The translations under genes and the position numbers were made by a program. DNA of 64,000 nucleotides, taken from Brevibacillus brevis. Its GTDB lineage: Bacteria; Bacillota; Bacilli; Brevibacillales; Brevibacillaceae. The DNA lies in assembly GCF_031583145.1 (NCBI RefSeq), contig NZ_CP134050.1:1698501-1762500 (forward strand), given 5' to 3'. Positions 9,588 through 36,615 of the stretch are shown piece after piece. The notes beneath the pieces were generated by a model, which worked only from the letters and a program-made list of their open reading frames with translations, had not been told where the DNA came from and searched no databases. Positions within the stretch are counted from its first letter, which is position 1. Each line of letters begins with the position of its first letter.

Positions 9588-9724
9588 TACAGATAGGAAT
9601 TTATAAAATTCCTATCCAGTATAAGGGCAACATAGCGAGACTTCGAACACAGTGAGAGAGCGAGACTTGTGCCCTTTGGGTACCGCGGCTCCGCCAAAAG
9701 GCTTGGCGCAGCCAGGTTTTCTAA
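9588..9724. repeat. Multi-hairpin intergenic repeat, copy A
   Basis: This 137-bp segment shares its order and most of its sequence with the element at 36360-36615. It holds a first hairpin (GATAGGAAT at 9592-9600 with ATTCCTATC at 9608-9616), a shared AGTATAAG linker, a middle segment with GCGAGACTTCGA and GTGCCCTTTGGGTAC (itself able to fold), and a last hairpin GGCTCCGCC...GGCGCAGCC followed by a TTTTCTAA tail. The first stem differs from the other locus by paired, compensating changes. No transposase or terminal target duplication is seen. It resembles REP/BOX-type extragenic repeats. Confidence 0.8.
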
Positions 9725-9816
9725 CTTGTCTGATTTCTCCTTTCCCAAACTGCCAGATAAAGGGTATCATTATGTGGGCAGTGAGGGAACAAGAAAGAGA
9801 GGAGGAACATCGCTTC

Positions 9817-10254
9817 ATGATTCGAAAGATTCTGGTGGCGCTGGTGTCGTCGCTGCTGCTTTGCATGGCGCTCGCGCTGGTCAACCACACCCCCGTGTCG
9901 GAGCAGCAACCGGACACGTACTACTGGCCGTACCTCTCCTTGGTGGCGGTCTATCTGATCTATGCGACCCCTGTCTATGTGGTGGGAGGAGTCCCCGCTT
10001 CCATGTTGATAGAAGTTCTGAATGAAAAAATTGCGTGGGCCAATCCTGTCATCGTCTACCTGTTTCGGCTGATCCTTTACGCAATGGCGGGCGTGCTTCT
10101 CATGATACTCTTCCAGTTCGTCCTGGGAGTGTCCAGAGGGGACGGGTCGGAGCTGTCGACCGGGGGAGGACTGGGAATGATTGCCGCGCTCGTGTATTTG
10201 CACGTGTGGCTCGCGAGCTTTCTGGTCGTCAAACCGAAAAGGCGGGTGTGGTAG
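9817..10254 (+). CDS. Small four-helix membrane protein, unknown function
   Basis: This 145-residue hydrophobic protein has about four predicted helices (near residues 4-22, 34-58, 80-105 and 115-138). The start ATG at 9817 is chosen for the upstream AGGAGG; extending further would translate the repeat element. No family is recognised. It is followed after 1 base by a small ORF and then an SPFH-domain gene on the same strand, so the three may be cotranscribed. Confidence 0.7.
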   Translation: MIRKILVALVSSLLLCMALALVNHTPVSEQQPDTYYWPYLSLVAVYLIYATPVYVVGGVPASMLIEVLNEKIAWANPVIVYLFRLILYAMAGVLLMILFQFVLGVSRGDGSELSTGGGLGMIAALVYLHVWLASFLVVKPKRRVW

Positions 10255-10255
10255 C

Positions 10256-10501
10256 ATGTCCGTGGGCGGTTTTCAGAGCGGTTTTCACGCCCGAAAGGTG
10301 CCGCGCTCCGAGGTGAAGTGGGGACCGTTCCTCATCTGCAGCCATGGCTGTCAGGAAATCGTCCAGCTGATTTCCCACGTGTCCGGCGAGGTCGAATTCG
10401 AGCTTTGCCGGATCGAGGCCGAGCGCATGGGACGGGTGCTGCTGGAGGCGGCCCGGTCTTTCGGAGAAGAATTCCGAAACGAATCTTTGACCGATCCGTA
10501 A
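10256..10501 (+). CDS. Small hypothetical protein, 81 residues
   Basis: The ORF begins 2 bases after the membrane protein stop (ATG 10256) and ends 34 bases before the SPFH gene. It encodes a soluble, mixed-charge protein (MSVGGFQSGFHARKVP...) with two cysteines near the middle (LICSHGCQE). The ribosome binding site is weak (GGCGGGTGTGG), so it may be translationally coupled. No family is recognised. It is kept because it fills the gap exactly in a same-strand row of genes. Confidence 0.45.
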   Translation: MSVGGFQSGFHARKVPRSEVKWGPFLICSHGCQEIVQLISHVSGEVEFELCRIEAERMGRVLLEAARSFGEEFRNESLTDP

Positions 10502-10535
10502 ACAGAAGAGAGAAAAAGAGAAGGGGAGGCGGAAC

Positions 10536-11363
10536 ATGGCAGAGCCAAACGTAGTGAAAATGAATCCCTTTAAGATCGGCGGGAAGGTAGTTGCGGTCAT
10601 CCTGGTCATTCTCGTCGCCGTGCTGATCGGCACGCAATCGTTCACAATCATCTCGGCAGGTCACAGCGGGGTCGTCTTGCAGCTGGGAGCCGTACAGCCG
10701 ACGGTTTTGCAGGAGGGTCTTCATTTCAAAATTCCGTTTATTCAAACGGTGATTCCCATGGAAGTGCGGGTACAGAAGTCGGAGACGAGCCAAACGTCGG
10801 CTTCGCGCGACTTGCAGACGGTATCGACGACGATCGCGGTCAACCACCACCTGGATGCGGAGAACGTCAACAAGCTGTATCAGCAGGTCGGGCTCGAATA
10901 CGCCAGCCGGATCGTCGACCCCGCCATCGCAGAGGCACTCAAGGCAGTCACCGCGCAATATACGGCCGAAGAGCTGATCTCCAAGCGCTCCGAGGTGAGC
11001 GGCAAGGTCAAAGAAACGTTGAAGCAAAAGCTGTCCACCTACCACATTATCCTGGATGAAATCAACATCCGCGAGTTTACATTCAGCGACGAGTTCAACC
11101 GCGCCATCGAAGCCAAGCAGGTGGCCGAGCAGCAAGCGCTCAAATCCAAGCTGGATCTCGAGCGGATCAAGATCGAGAAGGAGCAGGAAATCACGAAAGC
11201 GCAAGCCCAGGCAGAAGCGCTGCGCCTGCAAAAGCAAGAGGTCACTCCCGAGCTGGTGCAGCTGAGACAAATCGAGGCTCAGCTGGAAGCGATCCGCAAG
11301 TGGGACGGCAAGCTGCCGAACGTCACCGGCGGAGCCACGCCTTTTATCCAGGTAGGGAAATAA
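10536..11363 (+). CDS. Prohibitin/HflC-type SPFH-domain membrane protein
   Basis: This 275-residue protein has one N-terminal membrane helix (about residues 14-34), an SPFH/Band 7 domain (about 40-200, with GHSGVVLQLGAVQPTVLQEG and HFKIPFIQTV), and a C-terminal coiled coil rich in Glu, Lys and Gln (SKLDLERIKIEKEQEITKA). The start follows AAGGGGAGGCGGAAC. Such proteins form ring-like membrane assemblies that regulate FtsH-type proteases or organise membrane domains. No protease gene is adjacent, so its partner is unknown. Confidence 0.9.
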   Translation: MAEPNVVKMNPFKIGGKVVAVILVILVAVLIGTQSFTIISAGHSGVVLQLGAVQPTVLQEGLHFKIPFIQTVIPMEVRVQKSETSQTSASRDLQTVSTTIAVNHHLDAENVNKLYQQVGLEYASRIVDPAIAEALKAVTAQYTAEELISKRSEVSGKVKETLKQKLSTYHIILDEINIREFTFSDEFNRAIEAKQVAEQQALKSKLDLERIKIEKEQEITKAQAQAEALRLQKQEVTPELVQLRQIEAQLEAIRKWDGKLPNVTGGATPFIQVGK

Positions 11364-11389
11364 TCACTGGAAAGTGGGAGGCCATTCAG

Positions 11390-11418
11390 GACCAACACGT
11401 CTGTGGATGGTCTTTTTT
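11390..11418 (+). terminator. Terminator of the SPFH gene
   Basis: GACCA and TGGTC, with inner CAC/GTG, form an imperfect stem followed by six T. Confidence 0.6.
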
Positions 11419-11523
11419 CTCATGAAAAACGATAGGAAATGCTGATCCCCGCCATCACATCCTTCCATTGGACGCAGCCGGGATATCCTGATACGGTAAA
11501 GAGCAAGAACGGGAGGGGATCTG

Positions 11524-11589
11524 ATGGAACATGCCATCGCTCGTTTGGAGCAGCATCTTCGCCAGATCTTTCCGACGTCAGGATCATGA
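11524..11589 (+). CDS. Micro-ORF with strong ribosome binding site, 21 residues
   Basis: The ATG at 11524 follows CGGGAGGGGATCTG, a near-ideal ribosome binding site, and encodes MEHAIARLEQHLRQIFPTSGS. A strong terminator begins 9 bases after its stop. A weak promoter-like pair (TTGGAC and TACGGT) lies upstream. It may be a small peptide gene, a leader peptide or the 5' remnant of a lost gene. Confidence 0.35.
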   Translation: MEHAIARLEQHLRQIFPTSGS

Positions 11590-11597
11590 ACGACAAA

Positions 11598-11637
11598 AGA
11601 ACGCGGCCCTGTGTACCTTGGTTCCGCGTTCTTTTTT
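11598..11637. terminator. Bidirectional terminator
   Basis: AGAACGCGG pairs with CCGCGTTCT, with TTTTTT on the plus side and TTTT on the minus side. It serves the micro-ORF transcript and the convergent metallo-hydrolase gene. Confidence 0.85.
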
Positions 11638-11642
11638 GCGTT

Positions 11643-12455
11643 TTAGCATAGCTCCTCCTGCCCACGCCCGGCAATGACCGACGTGACGATGTGCAGAGAG
11701 TCGAATTCCCCTTCGGATACTTCCACGAGGGGCGGATTCAACGGGAAGAGCGCGTGGTTGATCTCTTCGGCGGACATTCCTTTACCATGCAGCAGGAGAA
11801 TTTCGCCTGTGAGGTTTTCCAGGTAATCCAGCTTTTTCTGGAGCATGGCTTTGCCACCCGCGATATAGCCGGCATGCGCGCAATACAGCGCCTGGAAATC
11901 GTGGGAAAGCACCGAGCGGATGGAGTTCATGAGTGTCGGGATGGACTCTTCCCGCAGGATGACTTTGGTTTTGGTGCCCAAAAACAGATCGCCGGCAAAC
12001 ACCCGCCCGGTCTTTTCGTGGATCAAGACGACATGGTCAAAGGCGTGGCCAGGGGTCTCCAGCACCTTCCAGTCCAACGTCCGCGAATGGAACGACTTGC
12101 CGAGCGGATGGGCGCGAAACGGCTGGCGTATGCCCCACGTACGCTGGCGGTATATAGGGTAGTCTGCCTCTTGTGCACACACGTCCACCCCTCTTTCGTG
12201 GATGTAGAGGGGGACGCCCAGGTGGTTTTCGATCCAGGCGGCAGTCCCGGTGTGATCCTCATGACTATGGGTGAGGACGACAGAATCGAAGGAGGAGGAT
12301 TCGTAGAACGGGATCAGCGATTCTTGAATGATCTTCGGGCCCGTGTCGACCAGCATTCCGTCCGACAAAAAAACGTAGATGGACGAATCGCGTCCTCCCC
12401 GCTTGACGCTCGCTTCCACGCAGACTACCTCTTCATGATGGTGGATGTGTATCAT
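11643..12455 (-). CDS. Metallo-beta-lactamase-fold hydrolase
   Basis: This 270-residue protein has the metal motif THSHEDHTG (HxHxDH) near residue 62, a second ligand region ETPGHAFDHVV near 133 and the bridging-Asp segment VFAGDLFLG near 152. The start is preceded by GGGAGGGG. Proteins of this size and layout hydrolyse thioesters or other small esters, or act as glyoxalase II-like enzymes. The exact substrate cannot be read. It lies alone between its terminator and the divergent helicase gene. Confidence 0.88.
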   Translation of the reverse strand: MIHIHHHEEVVCVEASVKRGGRDSSIYVFLSDGMLVDTGPKIIQESLIPFYESSSFDSVVLTHSHEDHTGTAAWIENHLGVPLYIHERGVDVCAQEADYPIYRQRTWGIRQPFRAHPLGKSFHSRTLDWKVLETPGHAFDHVVLIHEKTGRVFAGDLFLGTKTKVILREESIPTLMNSIRSVLSHDFQALYCAHAGYIAGGKAMLQKKLDYLENLTGEILLLHGKGMSAEEINHALFPLNPPLVEVSEGEFDSLHIVTSVIAGRGQEELC

Positions 12456-12616
12456 AGGCTACCCCTCCCACTAGAAAATCCTCTGTACCCTGCAATAGGT
12501 GAGCTCTCCTGCCTATTATACAATTCATCGACTATTCTGTCATTTTTGGCAGGCTTTCTGCTCCCGGGAATCGCGTGTAAGATGGGAGAATGAGAAGCTT
12601 TGCTAGAGGTGAAAGA

Positions 12617-15139
12617 ATGACACAACTGCCGATCGATGAAATCATGCCGGAATTGGCGATGAAGCTGAGGAGCCATGCTGGTGCCGTTCTCGTCGCGGCG
12701 CCCGGAGCGGGAAAGACGACGCGGGTGCCGCTCGCTCTGCGGGAGGAGCTGTGGCTTGCGGGACGGCGCATCCTGATGCTGGAGCCGCGCCGACTGGCGG
12801 CGAGAGCCGCTGCCAGATACATGGCGGCCGCTTTGGGAGAAGCGGTCGGAGAGACTGTGGGATACCGGGTCAAATCGGACGCACGGGTGGGCCCGCGTAC
12901 CCAAATCGAGGTCATTACGGAAGGAGTACTCACGCGGATGCTCCAAACCGATCCGGGTCTGGACGGGGTCGGATTGATTATCTTTGACGAGTTTCACGAG
13001 CGCAGCCTGCATGCCGATCTGGGTCTCGCTCTCAGCTTGCAGGTCCAAAGCTTGTTTCGGGAAGATCTTCGGATCCTCGTCATGTCGGCGACGCTGGATG
13101 CCGCCCCGGTGGCCGCGCTGATGGGCGGTGCACCGGTAATCGTGAGCGAGGGCAGAGCGTTTCCCGTCGAGACGCGCTATATGCCGAAGCCTGTGGAGGG
13201 GCGGCTCGAGCCGAATGTGGTCTCGCTCATCCTGCGGGCGCTGGCGGAAGAGACAGGGGACGTGCTGGTTTTCCTACCCGGTGCCGGAGAGATTCACCGG
13301 GTAGAGTCTTTGCTGCGGGAGAGCGGCCTGCCGTCCGGTATGGCGGTTCGGCCGCTGCATGGCTCGCTTCCCCAGGAAGTCCAGGATGCGGCGATCCAGC
13401 CGGAACCGACGGGCTTGCGCAAGGTCGTCCTGGCGACGTCGATTGCCGAGACAAGCCTGACCGTACAAGGCGTGCGGGTCGTCATCGACAGCGGGCTCAT
13501 GCGAGTGCCCCGCTTTTCTCCGCGTACAGGCATGACGCGATTGGAGACGATAGCGGTGTCGAGAGCATCGGCGGACCAGCGGCGGGGAAGAGCGGGTCGG
13601 CTGGAGCCGGGCGTCTGCTACCGGATGTGGACGCAGCAGGAGGACAGCGGTCTTGCGGCTCACCATGCCCCGGAGATTCGGGAAGCGGACTTGACGTCGC
13701 TCGCACTGGAGCTGGCGGCTTGGGGGGTGGACGATCCGGCCGAGCTGTCGTGGCTGGATGCACCGCCGTCCTCTGCGCTCGAGCATGCCTGGGAGCTGTT
13801 GCAGCAGCTCGGCGCGCTTGATCGGGACCGTCGCATTACGGCGCACGGCCGGGAACTGGCAGCCATGGGTTTGCATCCGAGACTGGGACACATGATTCGC
13901 AAGGCACAGGAGCGAGGCCGGGCCGATTTGGCCTGCGAACTCGCTGTGCTGCTCGGGGAGCGGGATATTTTGCGGGGGGCCACACGAGATGCGGATTTGC
14001 GACTGCGCATCGAGATGCTTCGCAGTGTCGCAGCGAATGGAGAGGCACGGGTAACCGATTATCCCGAAGTGCAAGTCGATGTGGCGGCGTGCAGGCGAAT
14101 TTGGGCGGAGGCCCGGCTGCTCAAGCAGACCTGGGACACAGGAGCGGCGCAGCGGGAAGGAGAGCAGAGCGATCTAGGAGGGATCGGGGCGTTGCTCGCT
14201 GACGCTTTCCCGGATCGGATCGGCCAGCGCAGGGGCAGCGGGAAGTATTTGCTCCGAAATGGACGAGGGGCTGTTTTTGCTGCAGACCAGCCGCTTGCGT
14301 ACGCATCGTATGTCGTCGCTGCCGAGCTCGACGATCAGGGGACGGACAGCCGGATCATGCTGGCGGCAAGGATCGAAGAGAGCGAGCTGGAAGAAGCATG
14401 CGCGGATCAGTTCGTGGAAGAGTCGGCCGTCTGGTGGGATAAATCGTCCCGGTCGGTTCGCGCACGCAGGCGAACGCGGCTGGGCGCTTTGGTGATCAAG
14501 GAAACCGCGACCGGTGAAGCGGATCCGCAGCAGGTCACGGAAGCACTGCTGAACGGGATCGCGGAAGAAGGACTGGAAATGCTGCCGTGGACTCGCCATG
14601 CCAGGCAGCTCCAGGAGCGGATGATGTTCATGCGGGGTCTGGACGATTCCTGGCCGGATGTATCGGACGAAGCGCTCGGGCGAACCTTGGAAGATTGGCT
14701 CGCTCCGCACGTATATGGCTGCAAGAATGCAACTGACCTGTCGCGGCTGTCGCTGGCCAGCGTGCTGGAGCAGATGCTGAGCTGGGAACAACGGCGGGAG
14801 CTGGACGAATATGCGCCCACTCACATCGTCGTGCCCAGCGGCTCGCGTGTGCCGATCGATTACGGGAATCCCGAGTCTCCGGTGCTGGCTGTCCGCCTGC
14901 AGGAGCTGTTCGGCTGGAAGGAAACGCCGCGAATCGGTCGGGGACGGGTCCCCTTGACCTTGCACCTGCTTTCCCCGGCACAGCGTCCGGTGCAGGTCAC
15001 AAAAGATCTGGCCAGTTTCTGGAAACAGACCTATTTTGAAGTAAAGAAGGACTTGAAAGGCCGCTATCCCAAGCACTATTGGCCGGACGATCCGCTCCAG
15101 GCCATCCCGACCAACCGGACAAGACCACGTTCCCAGTGA
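12617..15139 (+). CDS. hrpB: ATP-dependent RNA helicase HrpB
   Basis: This 840-residue DExH helicase has Walker A APGAGKTTRVP near residue 33, motif II FDEFHERSLHADLGL near 121, motif III MSATLD, motif VI DQRRGRAGRLEPGVCYR near 320, and the helicase-associated and HrpB C-terminal domains (about 360-840). Length and domain order match HrpB (about 810-850 residues). The ATG at 12617 follows GAGGTG at 5 bases; an ATG at 12590 has no such site. HrpB is related to RNA helicases of RNA processing, but its role in bacteria is poorly defined. The gene stands alone. Confidence 0.92.
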   Translation: MTQLPIDEIMPELAMKLRSHAGAVLVAAPGAGKTTRVPLALREELWLAGRRILMLEPRRLAARAAARYMAAALGEAVGETVGYRVKSDARVGPRTQIEVITEGVLTRMLQTDPGLDGVGLIIFDEFHERSLHADLGLALSLQVQSLFREDLRILVMSATLDAAPVAALMGGAPVIVSEGRAFPVETRYMPKPVEGRLEPNVVSLILRALAEETGDVLVFLPGAGEIHRVESLLRESGLPSGMAVRPLHGSLPQEVQDAAIQPEPTGLRKVVLATSIAETSLTVQGVRVVIDSGLMRVPRFSPRTGMTRLETIAVSRASADQRRGRAGRLEPGVCYRMWTQQEDSGLAAHHAPEIREADLTSLALELAAWGVDDPAELSWLDAPPSSALEHAWELLQQLGALDRDRRITAHGRELAAMGLHPRLGHMIRKAQERGRADLACELAVLLGERDILRGATRDADLRLRIEMLRSVAANGEARVTDYPEVQVDVAACRRIWAEARLLKQTWDTGAAQREGEQSDLGGIGALLADAFPDRIGQRRGSGKYLLRNGRGAVFAADQPLAYASYVVAAELDDQGTDSRIMLAARIEESELEEACADQFVEESAVWWDKSSRSVRARRRTRLGALVIKETATGEADPQQVTEALLNGIAEEGLEMLPWTRHARQLQERMMFMRGLDDSWPDVSDEALGRTLEDWLAPHVYGCKNATDLSRLSLASVLEQMLSWEQRRELDEYAPTHIVVPSGSRVPIDYGNPESPVLAVRLQELFGWKETPRIGRGRVPLTLHLLSPAQRPVQVTKDLASFWKQTYFEVKKDLKGRYPKHYWPDDPLQAIPTNRTRPRSQ

Positions 15140-15208
15140 CGGCTGGATACGGATGGGAGTATCCACTTATTTTTCTAGTTCGTTGTTCGTGAGTCAGGAA
15201 TAATCTGA

Positions 15209-15307
15209 AACTTTCCGAAAGGGAGGTTGCGTCGAGTAGGTACCGTGATATTCGCGGACTACCCCTCCGTACCTCGGGGCTGCCGTCAACTGGCAGCCCC
15301 TCTTTTT
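15209..15307 (+). ncRNA. Candidate structured RNA ending in a strong terminator
   Basis: This convergent gap between hrpB and bluB holds more structure than a terminator needs. AACTTTCC-GAAA-GGGAGGTT (15209-15228) is an 8-bp hairpin with a GAAA tetraloop. Its 3' arm, GGGAGG (15221-15226), can instead pair perfectly with CCCTCC (15263-15268), enclosing GTAG/CTAC and a CCGTGA-TAT-TCGCGG hairpin. AGGTAC (15238-15243) can also pair with GTACCT (15269-15274). The RNA ends in GGGGCTGCC...GGCAGCCCC plus TCTTTTTT. The T-run is on the plus strand only. No known riboswitch class is recognised and no downstream gene is on this strand, so a trans-acting small RNA is the simplest reading. Confidence 0.5.
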
Positions 15308-15319
15308 TATCCCATGATG

Positions 15320-15982
15320 CTACTTTCCGTCTGAGCTCGCTCCCCAGCGGTTGAGAAAGATCAGCTTTTGCAGCTCCTGCCGTTTTTCCCAGTGGTGAAT
15401 TTCCAGCAGCGGACGGTCCGGGTAGTAGTCGGTGTACCCGATCGACAGCAATGCGACCGGATCGATGTGCAAAGGAATGTCCAGGATGCGGCGCACATCG
15501 GCTTTTTTGTAAAAGCTGACCCAGCCCATGGCCAAGCCTTCTGCGTAGGCGGCCAGCCACATGTTTTGAATCGCGCAGCTGACGGACATGATATCGGTCT
15601 CGGGAATGGAGTTGCGCCCGAGCACGTGGTCCCCGCCCCTGGTCGGATCGCAGGTCACGCAAATGGTGACGGGAGCTTCCCTGATCCCCTGGATTTTCAG
15701 CTCCAGAAATGCCGACTCCCGCCCCGTGCCTTCATAGTGAATGGCCAGCGCCCGTCTTTCCTTGTCGGCGCATTCGGCGAGCTGGGCTTTGAGCTCCTCG
15801 TCCTTCACCAAAATGAAATTCCACGGCTGCATGAACCCGACGGAAGGCGCGTGGTGAGCCGCGGACAGAATCATGGCCAGCTTTTCGGATTCGATGGGGT
15901 CGCTGCGAAACGAGCGAATATCCCGGCGGTTGCTGATAGCTTTGTAGAGTCCGTTTTTTTCTTCGACAGTCAAGCGTTCCAT
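15320..15982 (-). CDS. bluB: 5,6-dimethylbenzimidazole synthase BluB
   Basis: This 220-residue protein of the nitroreductase fold has family-diagnostic segments: SNRRDIRSFRSDPI near residue 17, VGFMQPWNFI near 48, and PTRGGDHVLGRNSIPETDI near 112. These match BluB rather than generic nitroreductases. BluB destroys reduced FMN with O2 to make DMB, the lower ligand of vitamin B12. GGGAGGG lies 10 bases before the ATG. No other cobalamin gene is nearby, so DMB may serve salvage of B12 precursors encoded elsewhere. Confidence 0.87.
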   Translation of the reverse strand: MERLTVEEKNGLYKAISNRRDIRSFRSDPIESEKLAMILSAAHHAPSVGFMQPWNFILVKDEELKAQLAECADKERRALAIHYEGTGRESAFLELKIQGIREAPVTICVTCDPTRGGDHVLGRNSIPETDIMSVSCAIQNMWLAAYAEGLAMGWVSFYKKADVRRILDIPLHIDPVALLSIGYTDYYPDRPLLEIHHWEKRQELQKLIFLNRWGASSDGK

Positions 15983-16119
15983 GGCAGTATGACCCTCCCC
16001 ATAGCGTGCATTCCCTTCATTTTACTGGCAAAAGCGGTTTCCTTCCAGACATGCGTTTGACATATTCCTCCGCTACTCTAAAGGAGGAGTCTGTGCGATC
16101 GGAGAGGAGTGAAGCGCGA

Positions 16120-16803
16120 ATGAAAAACATCCTGATTGTAGAAGACGAACTGCCGATCTCCCGTGTCCTGAAGGCGTATCTGGAAAAGAACCAGTTTCAC
16201 GTGGAGCAGGCGTTTACGGGCGATGAAGCCGAACGGAAATTCGATGCCACAAGTCCATCGCTTGTCTTGCTGGATGTCATGCTGCCCGGACGCAGCGGCT
16301 GGAGCATTCTGGAATACATACGCAAAAAAAGCGCCTGCCCGGTCATCATGCTGACGGCGCTGGGGCAGATCGACAATAAATTGATGGGATTGAACCAGGG
16401 AGCAGACGATTACATAACGAAGCCGTTTATCGCAGATGAAGTGGTGGCACGCGTCCAGGCTGTGCTGCGACGCTCCACAAACATCATAAACGGCGATCAG
16501 GTGAGGCAGTTCGGCAGCCTGAAAGTGGACTTCAAGGCGTATACCGTCACGCTGCACGGGATCGAGCTGGCGTTTACGCCGAAGGACCTGTCTCTGTTTT
16601 TGTTTCTCGCGCAGTACAAGAACCAGACGTTTACGAGAGAGCAGCTCATCGAGCAGGTGTGGGGCATGGATTACGAGGGCAGCGACCGCGCCGTAGACCT
16701 GGCGATCAAGCGGATTCGCCGATCGCTGGAGAACTGGCCGGCCACGGAAGGGGAAATCAAGACCTACCGCGGACTCGGCTATAAGCTGTGCGTCTATGAA
16801 TAG
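16120..16803 (+). CDS. OmpR/PhoB-family response regulator
   Basis: This 227-residue protein has a receiver domain (about 1-115: MKNILIVEDELPISRV, phosphoacceptor in LVLLDVMLPGRSGW, switch Thr in MLTALG, Lys in ITKPF) and a winged-helix output domain (about 130-227, ending VDLAIKRIRRSLE and TYRGLGYKL). GAGAGGAGTG precedes the ATG at 16120. The stop overlaps the histidine kinase start by 8 bases. The cognate pair lies just upstream of a MacA/MacB-type efflux operon, its likely target. Confidence 0.93.
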   Translation: MKNILIVEDELPISRVLKAYLEKNQFHVEQAFTGDEAERKFDATSPSLVLLDVMLPGRSGWSILEYIRKKSACPVIMLTALGQIDNKLMGLNQGADDYITKPFIADEVVARVQAVLRRSTNIINGDQVRQFGSLKVDFKAYTVTLHGIELAFTPKDLSLFLFLAQYKNQTFTREQLIEQVWGMDYEGSDRAVDLAIKRIRRSLENWPATEGEIKTYRGLGYKLCVYE

Positions 16804-18196: not shown

Positions 18197-18216
18197 CGGG
18201 CCCAAAGGAAAAAGAG

Positions 18217-27737: not shown

Positions 27738-27777
27738 CGATAGGTCGAAAAACGGCAAATCGCATCGATGATAGCCA

Positions 27778-28185: not shown

Positions 28186-28204
28186 GTGGACTCCTTCTTT
28201 CTGA

Positions 28205-28241: not shown

Positions 28242-28382
28242 TATATTACAAAAAAGTGTGTACTTCTCATCCGGCCTTATATCCTCCATAATAGCATTTG
28301 CCAGCTGGCATTTCACCATCCAATGGATCACTCCCGTCCGCGGTGAACGGACGGATGATACGATAGACAAGGAGGAATACGC

Positions 28383-29606: not shown

Positions 29607-30445
29607 TGAACCATCTGCAAGATACGACAACGCTTCGCAACGGAGTAAAAATGCCTTGGCTGGGTCTCGGCGTCTTCAAAGTTCATGAAGGCCCTGAGGT
29701 GGTCGATGCCGTACGCACGGCCATCCGCCACGGCTACCGCAGTATCGATACGGCCGCTATTTACGAAAACGAGGAAGGGGTAGGAGAAGGCATCCGCCTG
29801 GGCATGCAAGACGCGGGGATCAGCCGGGAAGACTTGTTCGTCACGTCGAAGGTATGGAACTCCGACCTCGGCTACGAATCCACGCTGGCTGCCTATGAAA
29901 CCAGCCTGAAAAAGCTGGGCCTGGATTATCTCGACCTGTACCTGATTCACTGGCCGGTGGAAGGAAAGTACAAAGACGCCTGGCGTGCTCTGGAGACGAT
30001 TTATAAAGAAGGAAGAGTAAGAGCGATCGGCGTCTCCAACTTCCACGTCCATCATTTGCAGGAGCTGCTGAAGGATGCCGAGATCGTGCCGATGGTCGAC
30101 CAGGTGGAGTTCCACCCGCGCCTGGCGCAAAAGGAGCTCCGTGCGTTCTGCCAGGAACACAATATCCAGATGGAGGCATGGTCGCCGCTGATGCAAGGCC
30201 AATTGCTCGACAATCCCGTACTCAAGGAAATTGCGGATCGCCATCAAAAGTCCGTGGCGCAAGTCATCATTCGCTGGGATTTGCAAAGCGGAGTCGTCAC
30301 CATTCCGAAGTCCATCAAGGAGCACCGGATCGTGGAAAACGCGAATGTATTCGATTTCGAGCTGACTTTCTCCGACATGGAAAAAATCGATGCTCTGCAT
30401 GAAGGCGTCCGCGTAGGTCCGGACCCGGACAACTTTGATTTTTAA
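29597..30445 (+). CDS. Aldo/keto reductase, YtbE-like
   Basis: This 282-residue TIM-barrel oxidoreductase has the catalytic segments GYRSIDTAAIYENEEGVGEG (Asp, Tyr), VTSKVW (Lys) and LYLIHWPV (His), and NADPH-binding IPKSIKEHRIVENA near the C-terminus. The start ATG follows GGGAGGTACC; two more Met codons follow closely. It reduces aldehydes such as methylglyoxal with NADPH. It is cotranscribed with the transporter. Confidence 0.93.
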   Translation: MSMMNHLQDTTTLRNGVKMPWLGLGVFKVHEGPEVVDAVRTAIRHGYRSIDTAAIYENEEGVGEGIRLGMQDAGISREDLFVTSKVWNSDLGYESTLAAYETSLKKLGLDYLDLYLIHWPVEGKYKDAWRALETIYKEGRVRAIGVSNFHVHHLQELLKDAEIVPMVDQVEFHPRLAQKELRAFCQEHNIQMEAWSPLMQGQLLDNPVLKEIADRHQKSVAQVIIRWDLQSGVVTIPKSIKEHRIVENANVFDFELTFSDMEKIDALHEGVRVGPDPDNFDF

Positions 30446-30533
30446 CAGGATGGAAAACGACGAGCAACGAGTTGCCCGCGGCCCATCATGGCCGGGCGAA
30501 GCCGTAAATGGGATAACGATAGCGAAGCACACA

Positions 30534-30573
30534 AAGGGCAGGCTGCCGGTAGGAATACGGGCAGCCTGCCCTT
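30534..30573 (+). terminator. Long hairpin after the aldo/keto reductase gene
   Basis: AAGGGCAGGCTGCC pairs perfectly with GGCAGCCTGCCCTT (14 bp). The T-run after it is poor (TTATC), so it may act as a weaker terminator or an mRNA 3'-end stabiliser. Confidence 0.65.
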
Positions 30574-30654
30574 ATCATGTTGCATGGATCGATCTGTTCG
30601 GCTTGAGAATACGTGAACCAAAAACTACCCGAAAAAACAGGCGAATCAAAGTAC

Positions 30655-30693
30655 TTGATCCTTACTTCAACCATGATGTATATTATTTTACAT
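30655..30693 (+). promoter_or_regulatory. Promoter with overlapping dyad, tetR-map operon
   Basis: TTGATC at 30655-30660 and TATATT at 30679-30684 are 18 bp apart. An imperfect dyad (ATGTA...TACAT, 30676-30693) covers the -10. This is the usual position for autorepression by the TetR protein encoded next. Confidence 0.55.
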
Positions 30694-30726
30694 TGACATT
30701 ACCGCAGGTCTAAAAAAGGAGGGGCC

Positions 30727-31329
30727 ATGTCACCACGTACCAAAGAACAGAATGATGCGATCCGGGAGATGCGGATGAACCAAATTATGCGAGCGGCTGC
30801 GGAAGTATATTTGGAAAAGGGCATTCAATTGGAAATACGCGATGTTGCGGTCAAGGCAGAGCTTGGCTACGGAACCGTGTATCATTACTACAAAAATAAG
30901 CACATGCTTTTGGAAGATTTATTGTGGGATGCCCTGAATCGAACGGAGTCGGCAGTATTGCCCGCTTTGACGGAGGACAGTGGCAGTTTGCGTAAAGCGG
31001 AGTCGTTCTCCAGGCAGCTCTTGCGGACGTGTATCCAGGATCCTTCCGTATTTATTTTGCTTAAAACGGTTGCGGATAATTTTCATCACTTCCCGGGAAA
31101 CCGGTTCAACAAGCTGTATGCCGATTTTCAGGAGCGGATCTATTTGCCGTTTGTGGAAATGATTCGTGAAGGAATCGGTTCCAGATCACCGGAGAAAACA
31201 GCTAATCTGATATTTGGCTCGCTTGTTGGCTGCACAGCATTGAACATCCACCACCATAACCGGAACGAGATCGACGTGGAAGGGATCGTCGATATGATTT
31301 TTTCAGGCATACAGTCAAAGGAGAAATGA
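30727..31329 (+). CDS. TetR-family transcriptional regulator
   Basis: This 200-residue protein has an N-terminal TetR HTH (about residues 15-60: IMRAAAEVYLEKGIQLEIRD and LGYGTVYHYYKNKHMLLEDL) and an unclassified ligand-binding C-terminus. GGAGGGG precedes the ATG. Its last bases overlap the next gene, a methionine aminopeptidase, by 4 bases, so the two are translationally coupled. It probably represses this operon. Confidence 0.9.
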   Translation: MSPRTKEQNDAIREMRMNQIMRAAAEVYLEKGIQLEIRDVAVKAELGYGTVYHYYKNKHMLLEDLLWDALNRTESAVLPALTEDSGSLRKAESFSRQLLRTCIQDPSVFILLKTVADNFHHFPGNRFNKLYADFQERIYLPFVEMIREGIGSRSPEKTANLIFGSLVGCTALNIHHHNRNEIDVEGIVDMIFSGIQSKEK

Positions 31330-32081
31330 ATGAAATGGTCATCCTGAAATCGCGAGCAGAAATTGAAGAAATGAGAAAAGCCGGCAGCATTGTCGCTGCT
31401 TTTCATCGAGCAATCGCAGGTATGATCCGGCCGGGTGTCACGACGCTCGATATCGAATCGTTTGCAGTGCGGTTTCTGAAGGAGAATGGCGCCAAGGCTC
31501 ATACGATAGGCTACAACGGCTATCCGTTTGCGACATGTGCGTCTGTCAACGACGTCATTGCGCATGGTTTTCCGAGCCGAAAGCCGCTCAAGGAAGGCGA
31601 CATCGTCAAAATCGACATCGTCGCGGAAGCGGATGGCTGGATCGGCGATTCGGCTTGGTGCTATGCGGTCGGCGAGGTGTCGGAAGAAGCCCGTAATTTG
31701 ATGCGGGTAACGAAGGAATGCTTATATCTCGGTATCGAAAAAGCTGTCGTCGGAAACCGGATCGGCGATGTGATGCACGCGGTTCAAACCCATGCCGAGC
31801 GAAACGGATTCTCGGTGGTGCGCGATTTACTCGGTCATGGCGTAGGAAGGGAGATGCACGAGGAACCTACTTATCCCCACGTCGGGAAACCGGGAAAAGG
31901 CTTCCGCTTGAAGGAAGGGATGGTTTTTACGATCGAGCCGATGCTCAATGCCGGAAAACCGTCAATGACGATTGATGCCGACGGATGGACCGCCAGAACC
32001 GTTGACGGCTCGCTTTCCGCACAGTACGAGCATACAATCGCCATTACTGCGGATGGACCGATTATATTGACCGCACAATAG
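31326..32081 (+). CDS. Methionine aminopeptidase, type I (second-copy MapB-like)
   Basis: This 251-residue pita-bread peptidase keeps all metal ligands: Asp in VKIDIV, Asp in WIGDSAW, His in GHGVGREMHEEP, Glu in FTIEPM and Glu in QYEHTI, plus the substrate His in VIAHGFP. It removes N-terminal Met from new proteins. The housekeeping map normally sits in the ribosomal-protein region, so this is likely a second copy like B. subtilis YflG. Coupling to a TetR regulator implies conditional use. ATG 31326 overlaps tetR; ATG 31335 is better spaced from the AAGGAG and may be the real start. Confidence 0.88.
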   Translation: MNEMVILKSRAEIEEMRKAGSIVAAFHRAIAGMIRPGVTTLDIESFAVRFLKENGAKAHTIGYNGYPFATCASVNDVIAHGFPSRKPLKEGDIVKIDIVAEADGWIGDSAWCYAVGEVSEEARNLMRVTKECLYLGIEKAVVGNRIGDVMHAVQTHAERNGFSVVRDLLGHGVGREMHEEPTYPHVGKPGKGFRLKEGMVFTIEPMLNAGKPSMTIDADGWTARTVDGSLSAQYEHTIAITADGPIILTAQ

Positions 32082-32150
32082 AATCCACCCCTTTTATTGG
32101 CGGGAAGCTGAGGAAATCACATTTAACACAGCGTGTATGTTGAAACAAAC

Positions 32151-32181
32151 GAAAACGGTAACCCTATTCGTTACCGTTTTC
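32151..32181. terminator. Bidirectional terminator
   Basis: GAAAACGGTAAC pairs perfectly with GTTACCGTTTTC; TTTTC follows on both strands. It separates the methionine aminopeptidase from the convergent small ORF. Confidence 0.8.
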
Positions 32182-32193
32182 ATATGGAACCCT

Positions 32194-32412
32194 TTATCTT
32201 ACTCGGATAAACACCAAAACATTGTCTCTTGATAACACACGTTGGAACCCGTTATTCAAAAGACAGCGTGCAGCAGGGCCCACACGCCTACCGATCATTA
32301 AAAATGGGTTGCATGGTGCGGCCGTTCCAATGATGCTGACGTCGCGAATAATGCGTCTCCGTACGCCATTTACTCTGACACGTCTGAATAAAATCACAAC
32401 CACATCGGTCAT
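32194..32412 (-). CDS. Small very basic hypothetical protein, 72 residues
   Basis: ATG at 32412 follows GAGGTGATCAAG, with AAGGAGGAG further upstream. The protein is Arg- and Val-rich (MTDVVVILFRRVRVNGVRRR...), without acidic runs. A shared terminator follows 13 bases after the stop, which fits a real transcription unit. No family is recognised. Its translation could be an artefact of an RNA gene. Confidence 0.45.
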   Translation of the reverse strand: MTDVVVILFRRVRVNGVRRRIIRDVSIIGTAAPCNPFLMIGRRVGPAARCLLNNGFQRVLSRDNVLVFIRVR

Positions 32413-32649
32413 CTTGATCACCTCGCTCCTCCTTGCATGGTATAAAGAATGCAAATGAGGGAAGCTTGGCAACTGATACGAGCCTGTTGGAAATGAATAT
32501 GTGCGAATCGATACGGCAATGTACTGGAAAATGGCAGCCCGAAAGAACGAGCGGCATGGGACATTCAGAACGTGCGCCTCTCCCGGCTCACGTTGCGACG
32601 CTGCATGGCGGTGCACGACCACGTGCGCTGAAAGAAGGGGATGTAGCGG
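32413..32649. other. Intergenic stretch without a supported gene
   Basis: Together with the DinB terminator (32650-32692) this fills 305 bp between the small basic ORF and dinB. Both neighbouring minus-strand genes lie outside it. A TATACC-like -10 for the small ORF may lie near 32440. Open frames on the plus strand lack ribosome binding sites. Nothing else is seen. Confidence 0.4.
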
Positions 32650-32692
32650 AAAAAGAGGAATTCAAGAAAAAGCATGCTCTTGAATCCCTCTT
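32650..32692 (-). terminator. Terminator of the DinB-family gene
   Basis: AGAGGAATTCAAGA and TCTTGAATCCCTCT pair with one mismatch; the minus-strand product ends in TTTT. Confidence 0.75.
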
Positions 32693-32717
32693 CATGTTCC
32701 CGTTCGGTTTTCATTTT

Positions 32718-33191
32718 TTACCGATTCTTGGCCCCAGCCTGTTCAATCACCCGTACCATGGCTTTTATTTGCCCCATATGCTGCGCTTCCTCCAGCAACG
32801 CAAGACCGGCCAGTTCCCCAAAGGTTTCAAGCCCCAATATTGGTTTTTCCAGCGAATCATTGAACCGTTCTACAGGGATTTGTTTGACCCGATCCAACTG
32901 ATCCTTCAACTGCACAATGAGTTCGCCTACGGTAGGGACATCTGCTTTCCAATCGGCTGGCTTGGTTCCACTGCCGAATAATTCAAGATAACGAGCCGGA
33001 ATATTCGTTGTTTTGTGAGGGAATCCGAACATAATCTGTTCAGTAAGCGTTAAAACATGACCGATTTGCCATAAGATTGTGTTGTTAAAGCCGTCTGGCT
33101 GCACTTGTGCAACTTCCTCCGAGACAGCTTCAGCCTGCTTAATGAAATAACCCCTCGTCAGTTCGAAATGCCTCAACACCAATTTGCTCAT
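32718..33191 (-). CDS. DinB-family four-helix protein
   Basis: This 157-residue protein has the DinB/YfiT-like four-helix-bundle pattern with spaced His residues for a metal site: ILWQIGHVLTLTEQI near residue 41 and EEAQHMGQIKAMVRV near 137. GGAAGGAG precedes the ATG at 33191; the upstream in-frame Met (33227) is not needed. Family members include bacillithiol S-transferases (BstA) and metal-dependent hydrolases, so a thiol-transfer role is possible. It is monocistronic. Confidence 0.85.
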   Translation of the reverse strand: MSKLVLRHFELTRGYFIKQAEAVSEEVAQVQPDGFNNTILWQIGHVLTLTEQIMFGFPHKTTNIPARYLELFGSGTKPADWKADVPTVGELIVQLKDQLDRVKQIPVERFNDSLEKPILGLETFGELAGLALLEEAQHMGQIKAMVRVIEQAGAKNR

Positions 33192-33295
33192 GCTCTTCGC
33201 TCCTTCCAAATATTGCATCCCCCACACCTTACCAAACTTTATTTCACGTGTGAAGGACGGAAAAAAGTCAAAACCTGCAAAGCTACGTCAACAAG

Positions 33296-33319
33296 CAGGA
33301 AAAGCTTAAGCTTTTCCTG
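33296..33319. repeat. Perfect 24-bp palindrome
   Basis: A perfect palindrome centred on AAGCTTAAGCTT with outer CAGG/CCTG arms, lying between dinB and the muropeptide operon. It has no T-run and no spacer, so it is more like a protein-binding site or a remnant than a terminator. Apart from this and the promoter at 33436-33488, nothing is seen in 33192-33547. Confidence 0.5.
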
Positions 33320-33435
33320 GAGCGGGTCAGCAAAACAACGAAACCGCAACCCATGCACCCAATAAGGTTTGCCCTGACCGAAATCGGGTAGTGATAGTAC
33401 GGGGCCACTTTTTCGCAGATCAATCGAAATGAAAA

Positions 33436-33488
33436 GAAATAAAATTTACTGCTTGGTGATTGACTGGCGTAATTTTATTTCTTATAAT
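33436..33488 (+). promoter_or_regulatory. Muropeptide operon promoter flanked by inverted operator copies
   Basis: TTGACT (33460-33465) and TATAAT (33483-33488) are 17 bp apart, close to consensus. GAAATAAAATTTAC (33436-33449) lies upstream of the -35 and its inverse GTAATTTTATTTC (33469-33481) fills the spacer. Each copy is itself a rough dyad (GAAAT/GTAAA outer bases around AAAA/TTTT), a pattern seen at RpiR-family operators. A repressor bound to both could loop over or cover the promoter. The regulator is not encoded in the operon. Confidence 0.7.
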
Positions 33489-33547
33489 GAAAACGGAAAC
33501 AAGCGAATATTTTAACTATTCTCCATAGCGAAACGGAGGTTGCTTTC

Positions 33548-34768
33548 ATGGACCAACCTGCGAAATTGCTGGATTATCGCTCCAGAAGGGAGCATTTGCT
33601 CATCGGTCTCATGTCAGGTACTTCGCTTGACGGTGTCGATGCCGCATTGGTGGCGATTCGCACGAATGAACACGGGGAGATTGAAAACGCTTCACTCCGC
33701 GAGTTCTTTTACATGCCCTATTCCGATGAACTGCGCGAATGGGTCATGAGTCTGTGCAGTGTCGAGTCGGCTCGGGTGGACAGGCTCACAGCCGTTCACT
33801 TCGGACTGTCGGAATGGTACGCGTACGCGGTGCAACAGCTGATGGACAAGGCAGGCGTGAACGCGGAGGATGTGGACGCGGTCTGCATGCACGGCCAAAC
33901 GATCTGGCATATCGCCGGACGTGCGCCGTTCCCGGGTCCGACGGGCATGACAGAGGTCCGCGCCTCGCTGCAAATCGGCGAGCTTTCCACACTGGCCGAG
34001 CGCACCGGCATCCCGGTCGTGGGCAATTTCCGAGCGCGCGATCTTGCTGCAGACGGCGAAGGGGCGCCATTGGTTCCATACGCCGACTACATCCTGTTCC
34101 GCCATCCCGAAAAGGGCCGGCTGCTGCAAAATATCGGGGGAATTGCCAACGTCACGGTTCTGCCTGCAGGGGTCGGCATCGAGAACGTCATAGCGTTTGA
34201 CACCGGACCCGGCAACATGATCATGGACCAGATCGTCCAGATCGTGACGGATGGACGGCTTCGCTACGATGAGGGAGGCAGGATGGCTGCATCCGGGACT
34301 GTGTCGCAGCAGCTTCTGGAGCGTCTGCTGCAGGATCCGTACTACCGGGCCAAGCCGCCGAAGAGCACGGGACGGGAAGTGTACGGACTGTCCTTCGCGC
34401 AGGAGCTCGCGACAGAGGGAGGAAAGCTCGGGATCAGCGGAGCGGATCTCGTCGCGACGGCGACGGCACTCACAGCGACCTCCATCGCACAGGCCTACTT
34501 GCAATTCGTCATACCTACTACCAAAGTGGAGGAAGTGATCGTCTCCGGGGGAGGCGCTCACAACCAGACGCTGCTTCGCATGCTGCAAAGCCAGCTGCCC
34601 GCAGAGCTGACCGTCATGACCACGCAGCAGTTCGGCATGCCGGACGACGCGAAGGAAGCTGTCGCTTTTGCCATTTTGGGTCACGAGACACTAATGGGCC
34701 GACCGTCCAACGTACCTTCAGTGACAGGTGCCAAGAGGGCCGTACCGTTAGGAAATATATGCTTTTAA
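33548..34768 (+). CDS. anmK: Anhydro-N-acetylmuramic acid kinase
   Basis: This 406-residue ASKHA-fold kinase shows LMSGTSLDGVDAALV near residue 21, MHGQTIWH near 117, FDTGPGNMIMDQIV near 219 and VSGGGAHN near 335, all diagnostic of AnmK. It phosphorylates and hydrates 1,6-anhydro-MurNAc to MurNAc-6-phosphate. CGGAGG precedes the ATG. It opens the muropeptide operon; murQ, which uses its product, lies seven genes downstream. AnmK implies that the substrate is anhydro-muropeptide, the product of lytic transglycosylases. Confidence 0.95.
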   Translation: MDQPAKLLDYRSRREHLLIGLMSGTSLDGVDAALVAIRTNEHGEIENASLREFFYMPYSDELREWVMSLCSVESARVDRLTAVHFGLSEWYAYAVQQLMDKAGVNAEDVDAVCMHGQTIWHIAGRAPFPGPTGMTEVRASLQIGELSTLAERTGIPVVGNFRARDLAADGEGAPLVPYADYILFRHPEKGRLLQNIGGIANVTVLPAGVGIENVIAFDTGPGNMIMDQIVQIVTDGRLRYDEGGRMAASGTVSQQLLERLLQDPYYRAKPPKSTGREVYGLSFAQELATEGGKLGISGADLVATATALTATSIAQAYLQFVIPTTKVEEVIVSGGGAHNQTLLRMLQSQLPAELTVMTTQQFGMPDDAKEAVAFAILGHETLMGRPSNVPSVTGAKRAVPLGNICF

Positions 34769-34793
34769 CTGAAAAGACGTAGGGGGTACCATC

Positions 34794-36344
34794 GTGAAAA
34801 AACGAGTGTTGGCAGGCTTTTTCCTATCATTGTCCCTGATGCTCTCCGCATGTTCCGGCGGAGGGGGCACAGCAGCTCCCGGCGACCAGGCGAAGCCGCA
34901 GGAAGGACAGCAGGCGGCTGCGAAAACGGAGCTGGTCGTGGCAGCGGAGCAGGAGCCGGTAGGCTATGATCCTCACAAAGTACCGGCAGCATCCAGCGTG
35001 CGTGTCTACGCCCTCATTTACGACAGTCTGACCAAGCTGGACGAAAACATGAACATCGTCCCGAACCTGGCGGAGAAGTGGGAAATCACACCGGATGGCA
35101 AAACCATCACGATGTTCCTGCACAAAGGGGTCAAGTTCCACAACGGCAAAGACATGACGTCTGAAGATGTGAAATATTCCTTCGAGCGCATCTTGAACCC
35201 GGACACCGGTGCGATCGCCAAGTCGTACTTCTCCAGCGTCGAGTCTATCGAAGCCAAAGATCCGACGACGATCGTATTCCATCTGAAAAACGCCGACGCC
35301 GCCTTTATCGCAAACACCGCGAGCGCATACGCTTCCATCGTACCGAGCGGCTCGACTGATCTGACCAAAGAAGCCATTGGCACAGGGCCTTTCAAGCTGG
35401 AGAAAAGCGAGCCGGGCCAATACGTCCTGCTGAAGAAAAATCCGGATTACTTCAATAAAGACCTGCCGAAAGTGGAAGCGATCAAATTCCAGATCATGAA
35501 GGACGAGGCCGAGCGTCTGGCCGCGATCCGTTCCGGCAAAATCGACATCAGTGTCGTTTCCGCCGATTCCGCCAAGCTGCTGGAAGGCAAGCCAGGCGTG
35601 CAGGTGAAAAACTACCAGTCGCTCGAATACAGCTACCTGGGTATCAACGTAAACAAAAAGCCGTTTGACAATCCGAAAGTGCGCGAAGCGATCAGCTATG
35701 CCGTAGACCGCAACCAGATCGTACAGACCGTCTGGAAAGGCGAAGCGGCACTGACAGGCCCGATCGCGCCGGCTCTTACCAACTGGGCGGTAGATACTGC
35801 CAGCTACCCGACTTACAAGACCGATGTGGAAAAAGCGAAGAAGCTGCTCGCGGAAGCAGGCTTCCCGAACGGCTTTGACACGCAGATCGAGACTGCCGCT
35901 ACTTACCCGGACATGGTAGAAACCGCGCAAGTGATCCAGCAGCAGCTCAAGGCCATCGGCATCAACGCGAAGATCAACCAGCTCGAGTGGGGCAACTACA
36001 TCGAAACCTGGAAGTCCAAAGACATGAACCTGATGGTCGGACGCAACACGTCTGGCGTGGATGCCGACCGTTCCATGCGCTTCTTCTTCTCGTCGACCGG
36101 TTCCGCCAACGTCTGGAACTACTCCAACCCGGCGTATGACGAGCTGGTGAACAAAGCGCTCGCTACCGTCGACCAGGCCGAACGCAAAAAGCTGTACGAC
36201 CAGGCGCAAACCTTGCTCGTAGCAGATGCGCCAAACCTGTTCCTGGCTTCGCCGAAGAACTACTACGCCGTGCGCGACAACGTCGATTTCACCCCAAGCG
36301 CTGCGGGTGAAGTGTACTCCCTGATCAAGACTTCGATCAAGTAA
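34794..36344 (+). CDS. Peptide-type ABC transporter substrate-binding lipoprotein
   Basis: This 516-residue family 5 binding protein has a lipoprotein signal peptide (LSLMLSAC lipobox, Cys near residue 20), a Gly/Gln-rich linker, then the DppA/OppA fold with KLDENMNIVPNLAEKW near residue 80 and VKFHNGKDMTSEDVKYSFER near 112. GTG at 34794 starts it. Family members bind oligopeptides, nickel or murein peptides (MppA). The operon context argues for muropeptides. The next gene is separated by a repeat element, which may raise the level of this protein relative to the permeases. Confidence 0.92.
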   Translation: MKKRVLAGFFLSLSLMLSACSGGGGTAAPGDQAKPQEGQQAAAKTELVVAAEQEPVGYDPHKVPAASSVRVYALIYDSLTKLDENMNIVPNLAEKWEITPDGKTITMFLHKGVKFHNGKDMTSEDVKYSFERILNPDTGAIAKSYFSSVESIEAKDPTTIVFHLKNADAAFIANTASAYASIVPSGSTDLTKEAIGTGPFKLEKSEPGQYVLLKKNPDYFNKDLPKVEAIKFQIMKDEAERLAAIRSGKIDISVVSADSAKLLEGKPGVQVKNYQSLEYSYLGINVNKKPFDNPKVREAISYAVDRNQIVQTVWKGEAALTGPIAPALTNWAVDTASYPTYKTDVEKAKKLLAEAGFPNGFDTQIETAATYPDMVETAQVIQQQLKAIGINAKINQLEWGNYIETWKSKDMNLMVGRNTSGVDADRSMRFFFSSTGSANVWNYSNPAYDELVNKALATVDQAERKKLYDQAQTLLVADAPNLFLASPKNYYAVRDNVDFTPSAAGEVYSLIKTSIK

Positions 36345-36359
36345 CATCCGTACCAACAA

Positions 36360-36615
36360 GGCTCCGCCTGACCACTGGCGGAGCCAAGTTTTCTAATACA
36401 GATAAGAATTATAGGATTCTTATCCAGTATAAGTGCAACATAGCGAGACTTCGAGCGAAGTGAGATAGCAAGACTTGTGCCCTTTGGGTACTAAGGCTCC
36501 GCCAAAGGCTTGGCGAAGCCAAGTTTTCTAATACAGATAAGAATTATAGGATTCTTATCCAGTATAAGTGCAACTAAGGCTCCGCCAAAGGCTTGGCGAA
36601 GCCAAGTTTTCTAAT
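36360..36615. repeat. Multi-hairpin repeat, copy B (duplicated within itself)
   Basis: Order: GGCTCCGCC-hairpin (36360-36385), GATAAGAAT/ATTCTTATC hairpin (36401-36424), a 52-bp middle segment (36440-36491) with ACTTCGAGCGAAGT and GTGCCCTTTGGGTAC, second GGCTCCGCC-hairpin, second GATAAGAAT hairpin (36536-36559), third GGCTCCGCC-hairpin. A 57-bp stretch recurs exactly at 36383 and 36518, and a 41-bp stretch at 36492 and 36575. The second round lacks the middle segment. Each GC hairpin is followed by AAGTTTTCTAAT. The element lies between cotranscribed genes. It is related to 9588-9724. Confidence 0.88.

Follow-up and report, generated by a model that had tools for sequence, protein, structure and literature searches.

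The described repeat closest in organisation to the one reported here is BOX of Streptococcus pneumoniae, which has two end modules and a variable number of middle modules, forms stem-loops, is enriched behind genes and is thought to be parasitic (PMC3049150). BOX lies on the leading strand in 60.8% of cases, mirroring the coding bias, and the same account places BOX, RUP and SPRITE all at 61–63% leading-strand, SPRITE being terminator-like and RUP having terminal inverted repeats similar to IS630-Spn1 (PMC3049150). REP (repetitive extragenic palindromic) sequences are short palindromes of 20–40 bp tagged GTAG or CGTC (PMC3733652). For class C group II introns, insertion behind intrinsic terminators and a preference for the lagging-strand template have been published (PMC4424553, PMC8919778). 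Here we describe a repeat of Brevibacillus brevis that occurs at two loci in a 64,000-nucleotide stretch of the chromosome (NZ_CP134050.1, positions 1,698,501–1,762,500; hereafter the window). Our analysis of this genome and its relatives makes it probable that the repeat is a family of non-autonomous mobile elements that copies itself in immediately after the hairpins of intrinsic terminators, on their 3' side, likely on the single-stranded lagging-strand template.

The element consists of an A hairpin, zero, one or two copies of a B module, and a C hairpin with the tail TTTTCTAA. The elements in the window are 83–137 nt long and contain no gene; by reading, the left end is TAC and the right end is about CTAA. 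The element has in common with BOX the A-(B)n-C organisation with variable n (n = 0, 1 and 2 in the B. brevis genome), and the two are likened by organisation, not by sequence. EFAR repeats of Enterococcus faecalis, by their general description, are likewise modular small repeats targeting stem-loop sequences; part of the target stem is lost on EFAR insertion, whereas the terminator next to the Brevibacillus element is intact. No description of the family was found in the open literature searched.

Target site and orientation of the element

A search of the whole genome and of related genomes, proposed in an earlier note on the window, found further copies in number: 87 places in the B. brevis genome (G000 where genomes are compared; L and C numbers denote loci and contigs) and more in relatives of the same family. 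All listed matches in the genome, whose chromosome measures 6.15 Mb, are on contig C1 of three contigs. A 149-nt DNA query gave 53 matches at E values up to 4.2e-4, and a covariance model gave 89 places at E up to 1. The 87 places are these 89 rows minus four (555264, 3728829, 5863100 and 4229554), which were weak, overlapping or C-only, plus two C-only rows of the DNA query (2502131 and 5742353); the removal followed no fixed threshold, and some equally weak rows were retained. A recognisable left end, defined by similarity of at least 9/13 to TACAGATAGGAAT alone, was present at 69 of the 87 places; the other 18 are not counted among these. No count includes three additional C-ends (1945525, 5339794 and 5481329).

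The 50 nt before each left end were folded, and a terminator was scored when a hairpin of −7 kcal/mol or lower ended within 13 nt and at least four T were present in the last 9 nt. By this test, 66 of the 69 left ends lie directly 3' of a terminator hairpin (median −20.75 kcal/mol), against 248 of 4000 random positions (6%), 68 of 925 other TACAG sites and 5 of 87 places 110–160 nt downstream. A stricter pattern, with short loops and near-perfect stems, occurred at 55 of the 87 places; it also matched 59 of 4000 random positions and, among the 87 positions downstream, a single one. Read in their own orientation, most copies start where the terminator T-run ends, the typical junction being TTTTTTG followed by TACAG; the base preceding TAC is G in 41 copies, A in 18, T in 7 and C in 3. 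In contrast, insertion directly behind terminators is not described for BOX in the part of its published account available to us (PMC3049150).

The target is seen in the window at element 1. The FMN-reductase gene (8971–9531) is followed on the forward strand by its intrinsic terminator (9555–9587; stem-loop 9555–9579, T-run 9580–9586, then A), which passes the hairpin and T-run test and is the target of this element. The terminator scan tool reported none at 9450–9850, where the loop is longer than the tool permits. Behind the homologous genes, matched by best match, G006 has a terminator and an A-C element, and G007 and G024 have the terminator without an element, by reading. At the site between the SBP_bac_5 and BPD_transp_1 genes, the flanks are conserved on both sides and the terminator is the same, and the number of units differs among three genomes: one C unit in G017, an A-C element in G006, and A-B-C plus A-C in G000. 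A copy in G017 has shrunk to T-run-GCACA-GCCAAGTTTTCTAA, both ends being retained after internal loss.

All 69 copies with a recognisable left end run with replication (binomial P 8e-15), as do 84 of all 87 places. The baseline, drawn from 40 stretches of ~20 kb, was 364 leading versus 223 lagging open reading frames (ORFs) of at least 150 aa and 110 versus 66 terminator-like sites behind ORFs (62% each). The reported leading-strand fractions of BOX (60.8%) and of RUP and SPRITE (61–63%), which are small repeats like this element, contrast with its 69 of 69 (PMC3049150). The origin side, assigned from GC skew alone, was taken as the start of C1, and the sign of the skew reverses at about 3.05–3.10 Mb; none of the 87 places falls between 2.95 and 3.36 Mb, so that the exact position of the terminus is immaterial. 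In relatives, the expected strand was found for 18 of 19 C-ends in G017, with the switch set at half the chromosome, and for 12 of 14 in G021, with the switch placed by the data. The sense strand of a gene directed with the fork is the lagging-strand template, and the favoured target is thus a terminator hairpin and T-run in a strand that is single-stranded during replication.

The right end was examined by anchoring 66 of the 69 copies on the 3' arm of the C hairpin. Tail positions 8–11 are C, T, A and A in 56, 48, 54 and 56 of the 66, position 12 is T in 39 of 66, and from position 13 the commonest base reaches at most 25, which is background; this profile places the conserved right end at CTAA or one base beyond. 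When G016 copies were anchored on the core and the tail was not demanded, 20 of 21 ended in TTTTCTAA and the remaining one in TATTCTAA. Spread by the host alone, in which the lagging-strand polymerase would switch template from the T-run of one terminator hairpin to that of another and no dedicated enzyme would be needed, would account for the target, the orientation, the tandem growth and the absent transposase. We consider it very unlikely, because switching at T-runs alone would not fix a right end four bases past the T-run, as found in the tails of both genomes.

Modules, folding and distribution

The earlier note described two loci, 27 kb apart, with three modules in common in the same order, and re-reading of the sequence confirmed this arrangement and the arms of the first stem at each locus. 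All of the modules lie on the forward strand. Locus 1 is a single element (9588–9724), consisting of module A (9588–9631; hairpin GATAGGAAT/ATTCCTATC, core TAAGGGCAAC, read and folded), module B (9632–9683) and module C (9684–9724; terminator-like hairpin GGCTCCGCC...GGCGCAGCC and tail AGGTTTTCTAA, by pattern and fold). Locus 2 contains, head to tail, a C-like terminator hairpin (36360–36385, tail to 36396), an A-B-C element (2a, 36397–36531) and a short A-C element (2b, 36532–36614). Element 2a is divided into A (36397–36439; hairpin GATAAGAAT/ATTCTTATC, core TAAGTGCAAC, read and folded), B (36440–36491, read in the sequence) and C (36492–36531, tail AAGTTTTCTAA). Element 2b, with A at 36532–36574 (read and folded) and C at 36575–36614, directly adjoins the CTAA end of 2a.

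In general, the stem of the A hairpin starts within ~4 bases of the left end and is followed by the core TAAG(G/T)GCAAC. Module B is 52 nt long and optional, being present in long forms and not in short ones, with zero, one or two copies per element; A-C and A-B-C forms and one A-B-B-C form, with its doubled B at C1:5678915–5679104, occur in the genome. Module C has the hairpin GGCTNCGCC...GGCGNAGCC, lengthened in folds by AAC(C/T)/(G/A)GTT, and its tail ends in TTCTAA. The C-type hairpin pattern gave five matches at four places in the window, one of them counted on both strands, and none in 100 shuffles. Folded as DNA, the three window elements had z = −4.1, −3.4 and −5.5 relative to shuffles, the fold of element 1 ending at 9723, one base short. 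No Rfam family matched at its gathering score within the window, and a known RNA family was rejected: a lax search of locus 2 gave three matches, of 22, 19.7 and 15.6 bits, where the gathering scores are 60, 36.8 and 89.

The C-like hairpin at locus 2 lies in the gap between the SBP_bac_5 gene and the BPD_transp_1 permease gene (36358–36396), and this perfect hairpin is kept at the same site in three genomes (L352 in G006 and L319 in G017). It is perhaps a relic of the element adopted as an operon-internal terminator. The longest ORF of the permease (36568–37572) starts inside the repeat, and the GTG at 36631 is the likelier start; automatic annotation would thus add residues encoded by the element.

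The first stem differs between the two loci by a base changed on both arms, which the earlier note took as a sign of selection for folding. This holds mainly between subfamilies, which the swap separates, and not for the inserted copies of this genome, among which the paired positions vary nearly independently. The two refuting conditions named in the earlier note thus give a mixed outcome, the existence of further copies speaking for its reading and this near-independence against it. We compared 58 A stems (40 distinct) and 67 C stems (52 distinct) of the genome with 1000 whole-arm shuffles. The C stem showed no excess, with 8 double-change cells versus a shuffle mean of 6.9 (reached by 367 of 1000) and a paired fraction of 0.790 versus 0.784 (139 of 1000). 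The A stem showed a modest one, with 10 cells versus 4.4 (4 of 1000) and a paired fraction of 0.869 versus 0.854 (16 of 1000), which we read as a likely mark of subfamilies. Between species, whole A hairpins are exchanged for other self-complementary sequences, with closing stems such as TAC/GTA, GTCGAT/ATCGAC, ACTATC/GATAGT and GCCGATAGG/CTGTCGGC. Ten A-type modules were folded: in eight, z is at most −1.75, and the other two (−0.5 and +0.2) resemble shuffles. We read these observations as structure kept in the mobile lineages while resident copies decay, a pattern of a mobile element and not of a host function.

The alternative is that the host selects the repeats as structured RNA elements, acting as regulators in 3' untranslated regions or as back-up terminators. 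The sense orientation behind genes, the terminator-like C module at locus 2 and the hairpin kept in three genomes between the SBP_bac_5 and permease genes are consistent with such a role. However, the bias of the copies towards the direction of replication far exceeds that of the genes, the C stems lack a compensation excess, and identical copies in G016 stand behind unrelated sequences; we regard this alternative as highly improbable.

Matches were found in 21 of 79 genomes, and the core pattern in 25 of the 39 genomes of the order, B. brevis being included in both counts. The B pattern occurred in 5 of 398 genomes of the class, namely this genome and four from other families, with tandem arrays in G299; in a scan of named genomes, whose range may leave out the present one, it occurred only in Brevibacillus centrosporus. 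B-like modules in other families of the class (L186 and L192 in G299, L051 in G075 and L180 in G045) stand partly in tandem arrays of 56-nt units and have a different front hairpin; the 56-nt units of G299 belong to another family. Perhaps these modules represent a wider BOX-like superfamily. Element 1 had no match in phages or plasmids, and two exact patterns had none in viral contigs; spread by phage or plasmid was therefore rejected, and the result fits mainly vertical descent. The proposal in the earlier note of a dispersed, lineage-specific repeat family with strong folding is supported by these data, as is its BOX-like organisation.

In relatives, we examined all 19 C-ends of G017, 21 of 41 in G006 and 21 of 42 in G016, where the regions were picked by the C-end pattern. 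A core was present within 170 nt of the C-end in 16 of 19, 19 of 21 and 21 of 21, respectively, and the remainder have the appearance of deleted forms, units with C alone or diverged copies. No autonomous copy with cargo between A and C was noticed among these C-ends, a search that was not complete. One copy in B. brevis stands behind tRNA genes (G000:C1:4581705–4581841), and a partial C unit stands behind a similar tRNA gene in G009 (L224) at a different offset. Beside relic copies at L043 (G012) and L174 (G001) lies a second repeat block starting with AGAAGAATATTTCCAG, with an inverted partner further on.

Recent copies and candidate enzymes

A recent burst of the element is seen in G016, a draft genome in ~120 contigs that is 99% complete. 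The C-end pattern occurs there at 42 places, and 20 regions picked by it yielded 21 elements, one of them in tandem immediately behind the CTAA of another copy. Nineteen regular copies fit one 106-nt pattern, and 15 of these are letter-identical; the regular copies were defined by a pattern with four variable positions, from which their common length and ends follow. Upstream of their T-runs, the preceding 30 nt agree among copies at 25% of positions on average and 43% at most. When the two flanks of each of the 19 copies were compared, 2 nt were shared in four copies, 3 nt in one, and at least 4 nt in none.

A classical miniature inverted-repeat transposable element (MITE) is not supported, on two grounds: this between-flank comparison, which revealed no target-site duplication of at least 4 nt, and the left end, TACAGATAG or TACTATCGG, which by reading is unlike the reverse complement of the right end, TTAGAAAAC. 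The label of the earlier note, a REP/BOX/MITE-like family, therefore holds for BOX, the closest known organisation, and is not supported for classical MITEs or for REP mobilised by its associated transposase (TnpA-REP, or RAYT). Like the element, REP sequences are palindromic, extragenic and present in many copies; however, this genome is without Y1, and the element is longer and modular. The REP tags GTAG and CGTC were not seen at the element ends, TAC... and ...CTAA, by reading without a motif count.

A non-autonomous IS200/IS605-like or REP-like element could be moved as single-stranded DNA by a Y1 HUH transposase recognising both end hairpins. Hairpins at both ends, the lack of terminal inverted repeats by reading and of target duplications of at least 4 nt, and the strong lagging-template bias, a trait given for IS608 and ISDra2 (PMC6006769), all fit such movement. 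The searches for the enzyme spoke otherwise: PF01797 (Y1_Tnp) had no match in B. brevis, with a positive E. coli control, nor in G006 and G016, despite the many copies in all three. No family core or end motifs were found alongside 30 Y1 loci, except for two 11-nt hits with one mismatch. Among the 39 genomes, 12 were element-rich, with at least five matches in a scan that scored ~10 candidates per genome and counted A and C pieces separately, and 27 were element-poor; Y1 was present in 9 of the 12 and 13 of the 27 (Fisher p 0.17). The target, moreover, is a structure and not a fixed tetranucleotide. On the Y1 searches and Y1 flanks REP/RAYT was rejected, and we consider movement by any Y1 enzyme quite unlikely.

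Group IIC introns share with the element the insertion behind terminators (66 of 69), the orientation relative to the lagging-strand template (69 of 69) and, at two loci, the very nucleotide. The local introns are class C in our reading, judged from the 5' end, the size of the reverse transcriptase (RT) and the site, not from a tree. In 8 of the 10 intron loci examined in the clade, a T-run is followed by GTGCG. Two of nine intron tails read, L199 (G007) and L203 (G030), 3' of the group II RT gene, continue straight into a left end of the element, so that the intron stands between T-run and element and both kinds choose the same nucleotide. Introns differ from the element in carrying a ribozyme and an RT gene, for neither of which 83–137 nt have room, and in their GTGYG 5' end, where the element begins with TAC; no Rfam model reached its gathering score anywhere in the window.

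A parasite of these introns resembling a short interspersed element (SINE) would be a short structured RNA, with the A hairpin at its 5' end and the C terminator at its 3' end, inserted in trans by a group IIC RT. The shared site and the two intron–element junctions argue for it, as do the group II RT loci of G007, the single genome tallied, which lie on the replication strand in 13 of 13 cases. The burst genome contains, at L306 (C74:1–1873), an IIC-like intron 5' part that immediately follows a terminator T-run, matches at 71% over 280 nt and runs off the contig end; since the intron is cut by the end of C74, an RT may lie in an assembly gap of this draft, which weakens one argument against a group IIC RT. 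On the other side, G000 and G017 have no IIC-type intron match, and G016, G017 and G002 no group II RT match; G000 itself has four group II RT matches. Group II RT was present in 9 of 12 rich and 17 of 27 poor genomes (Fisher p 0.71) and IIC-type intron DNA in 10 of 12 and 16 of 27 (Fisher p 0.27), so that mobilisation by resident group II introns is not supported by co-occurrence. Several genomes with 7–19 intron matches (G003, G005, G008, G010 and G011) have one element match or none, and matches between the element and local introns were 10–16 nt only, at E 0.2 or worse. We therefore regard such a parasite as unlikely.

Several points weigh against our proposal of a mobile element copying itself behind terminators. 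The stricter terminator pattern is passed by only 55 of the 87 places (59 of 4000 at random), 3 of the 69 copies fail the folding test, and fewer C-ends pass a terminator test in relatives (15 of 19 in G017, 18 of 21 in G006 and 20 of 21 in G016). Three of the 87 places are on the opposite strand. Filled and empty sites were compared between species only, the nearest homologue being 77% identical. No mobilising enzyme was found: B. brevis has no Y1_Tnp match and no match to the 5' part of group IIC-type introns, the draft of G016 shows neither Y1 nor group II RT matches despite the burst, and neither Y1, group II RT nor IIC-type intron DNA is significantly associated with element-rich genomes.

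We nevertheless favour a non-autonomous mobile element. Its target would most likely be a terminator that folds while the lagging-strand template is single-stranded at the replication fork, where an enzyme acting in trans may recognise the hairpin and T-run. The element, from TAC to about CTAA, would be joined behind the T-run, as a rule with one G or A in between. Its own C hairpin and T-run would make its end a fresh target, from which tandem arrays such as that at 36358–36614 would arise. The position behind terminators may serve as a safe haven, in which inserted copies then decay. The moving form could be RNA or single-stranded DNA; we tentatively prefer RNA, copied into DNA at the gap by reverse transcription, given that this site and strand are also those of group IIC introns.

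Movement of small repeats without genes

How small gene-less bacterial repeats move is a long-standing question. In 2007, a review stated that the transposases assumed for them were still without experimental support (PMC2229807). The combination of BOX-like organisation and group-IIC-like targeting, with no mobilising enzyme found, was not encountered in the open literature searched. The element may even be a bacterial counterpart of SINEs, a structured RNA of ~100 nt without a protein for which an RT acting in trans, of a group IIC intron or other, would carry out retro-insertion behind terminator hairpins of the lagging-strand template, and whose middle module reaches other families of the class; this is possible, and we hold it rather doubtful.

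The defined ends, the structural target, the near-absolute replication-strand bias and a genome with a burst of identical copies make the mechanism directly testable. Our results also suggest that mobile elements of unrelated kinds land at a common site, the terminator hairpin exposed on the template of the lagging strand.

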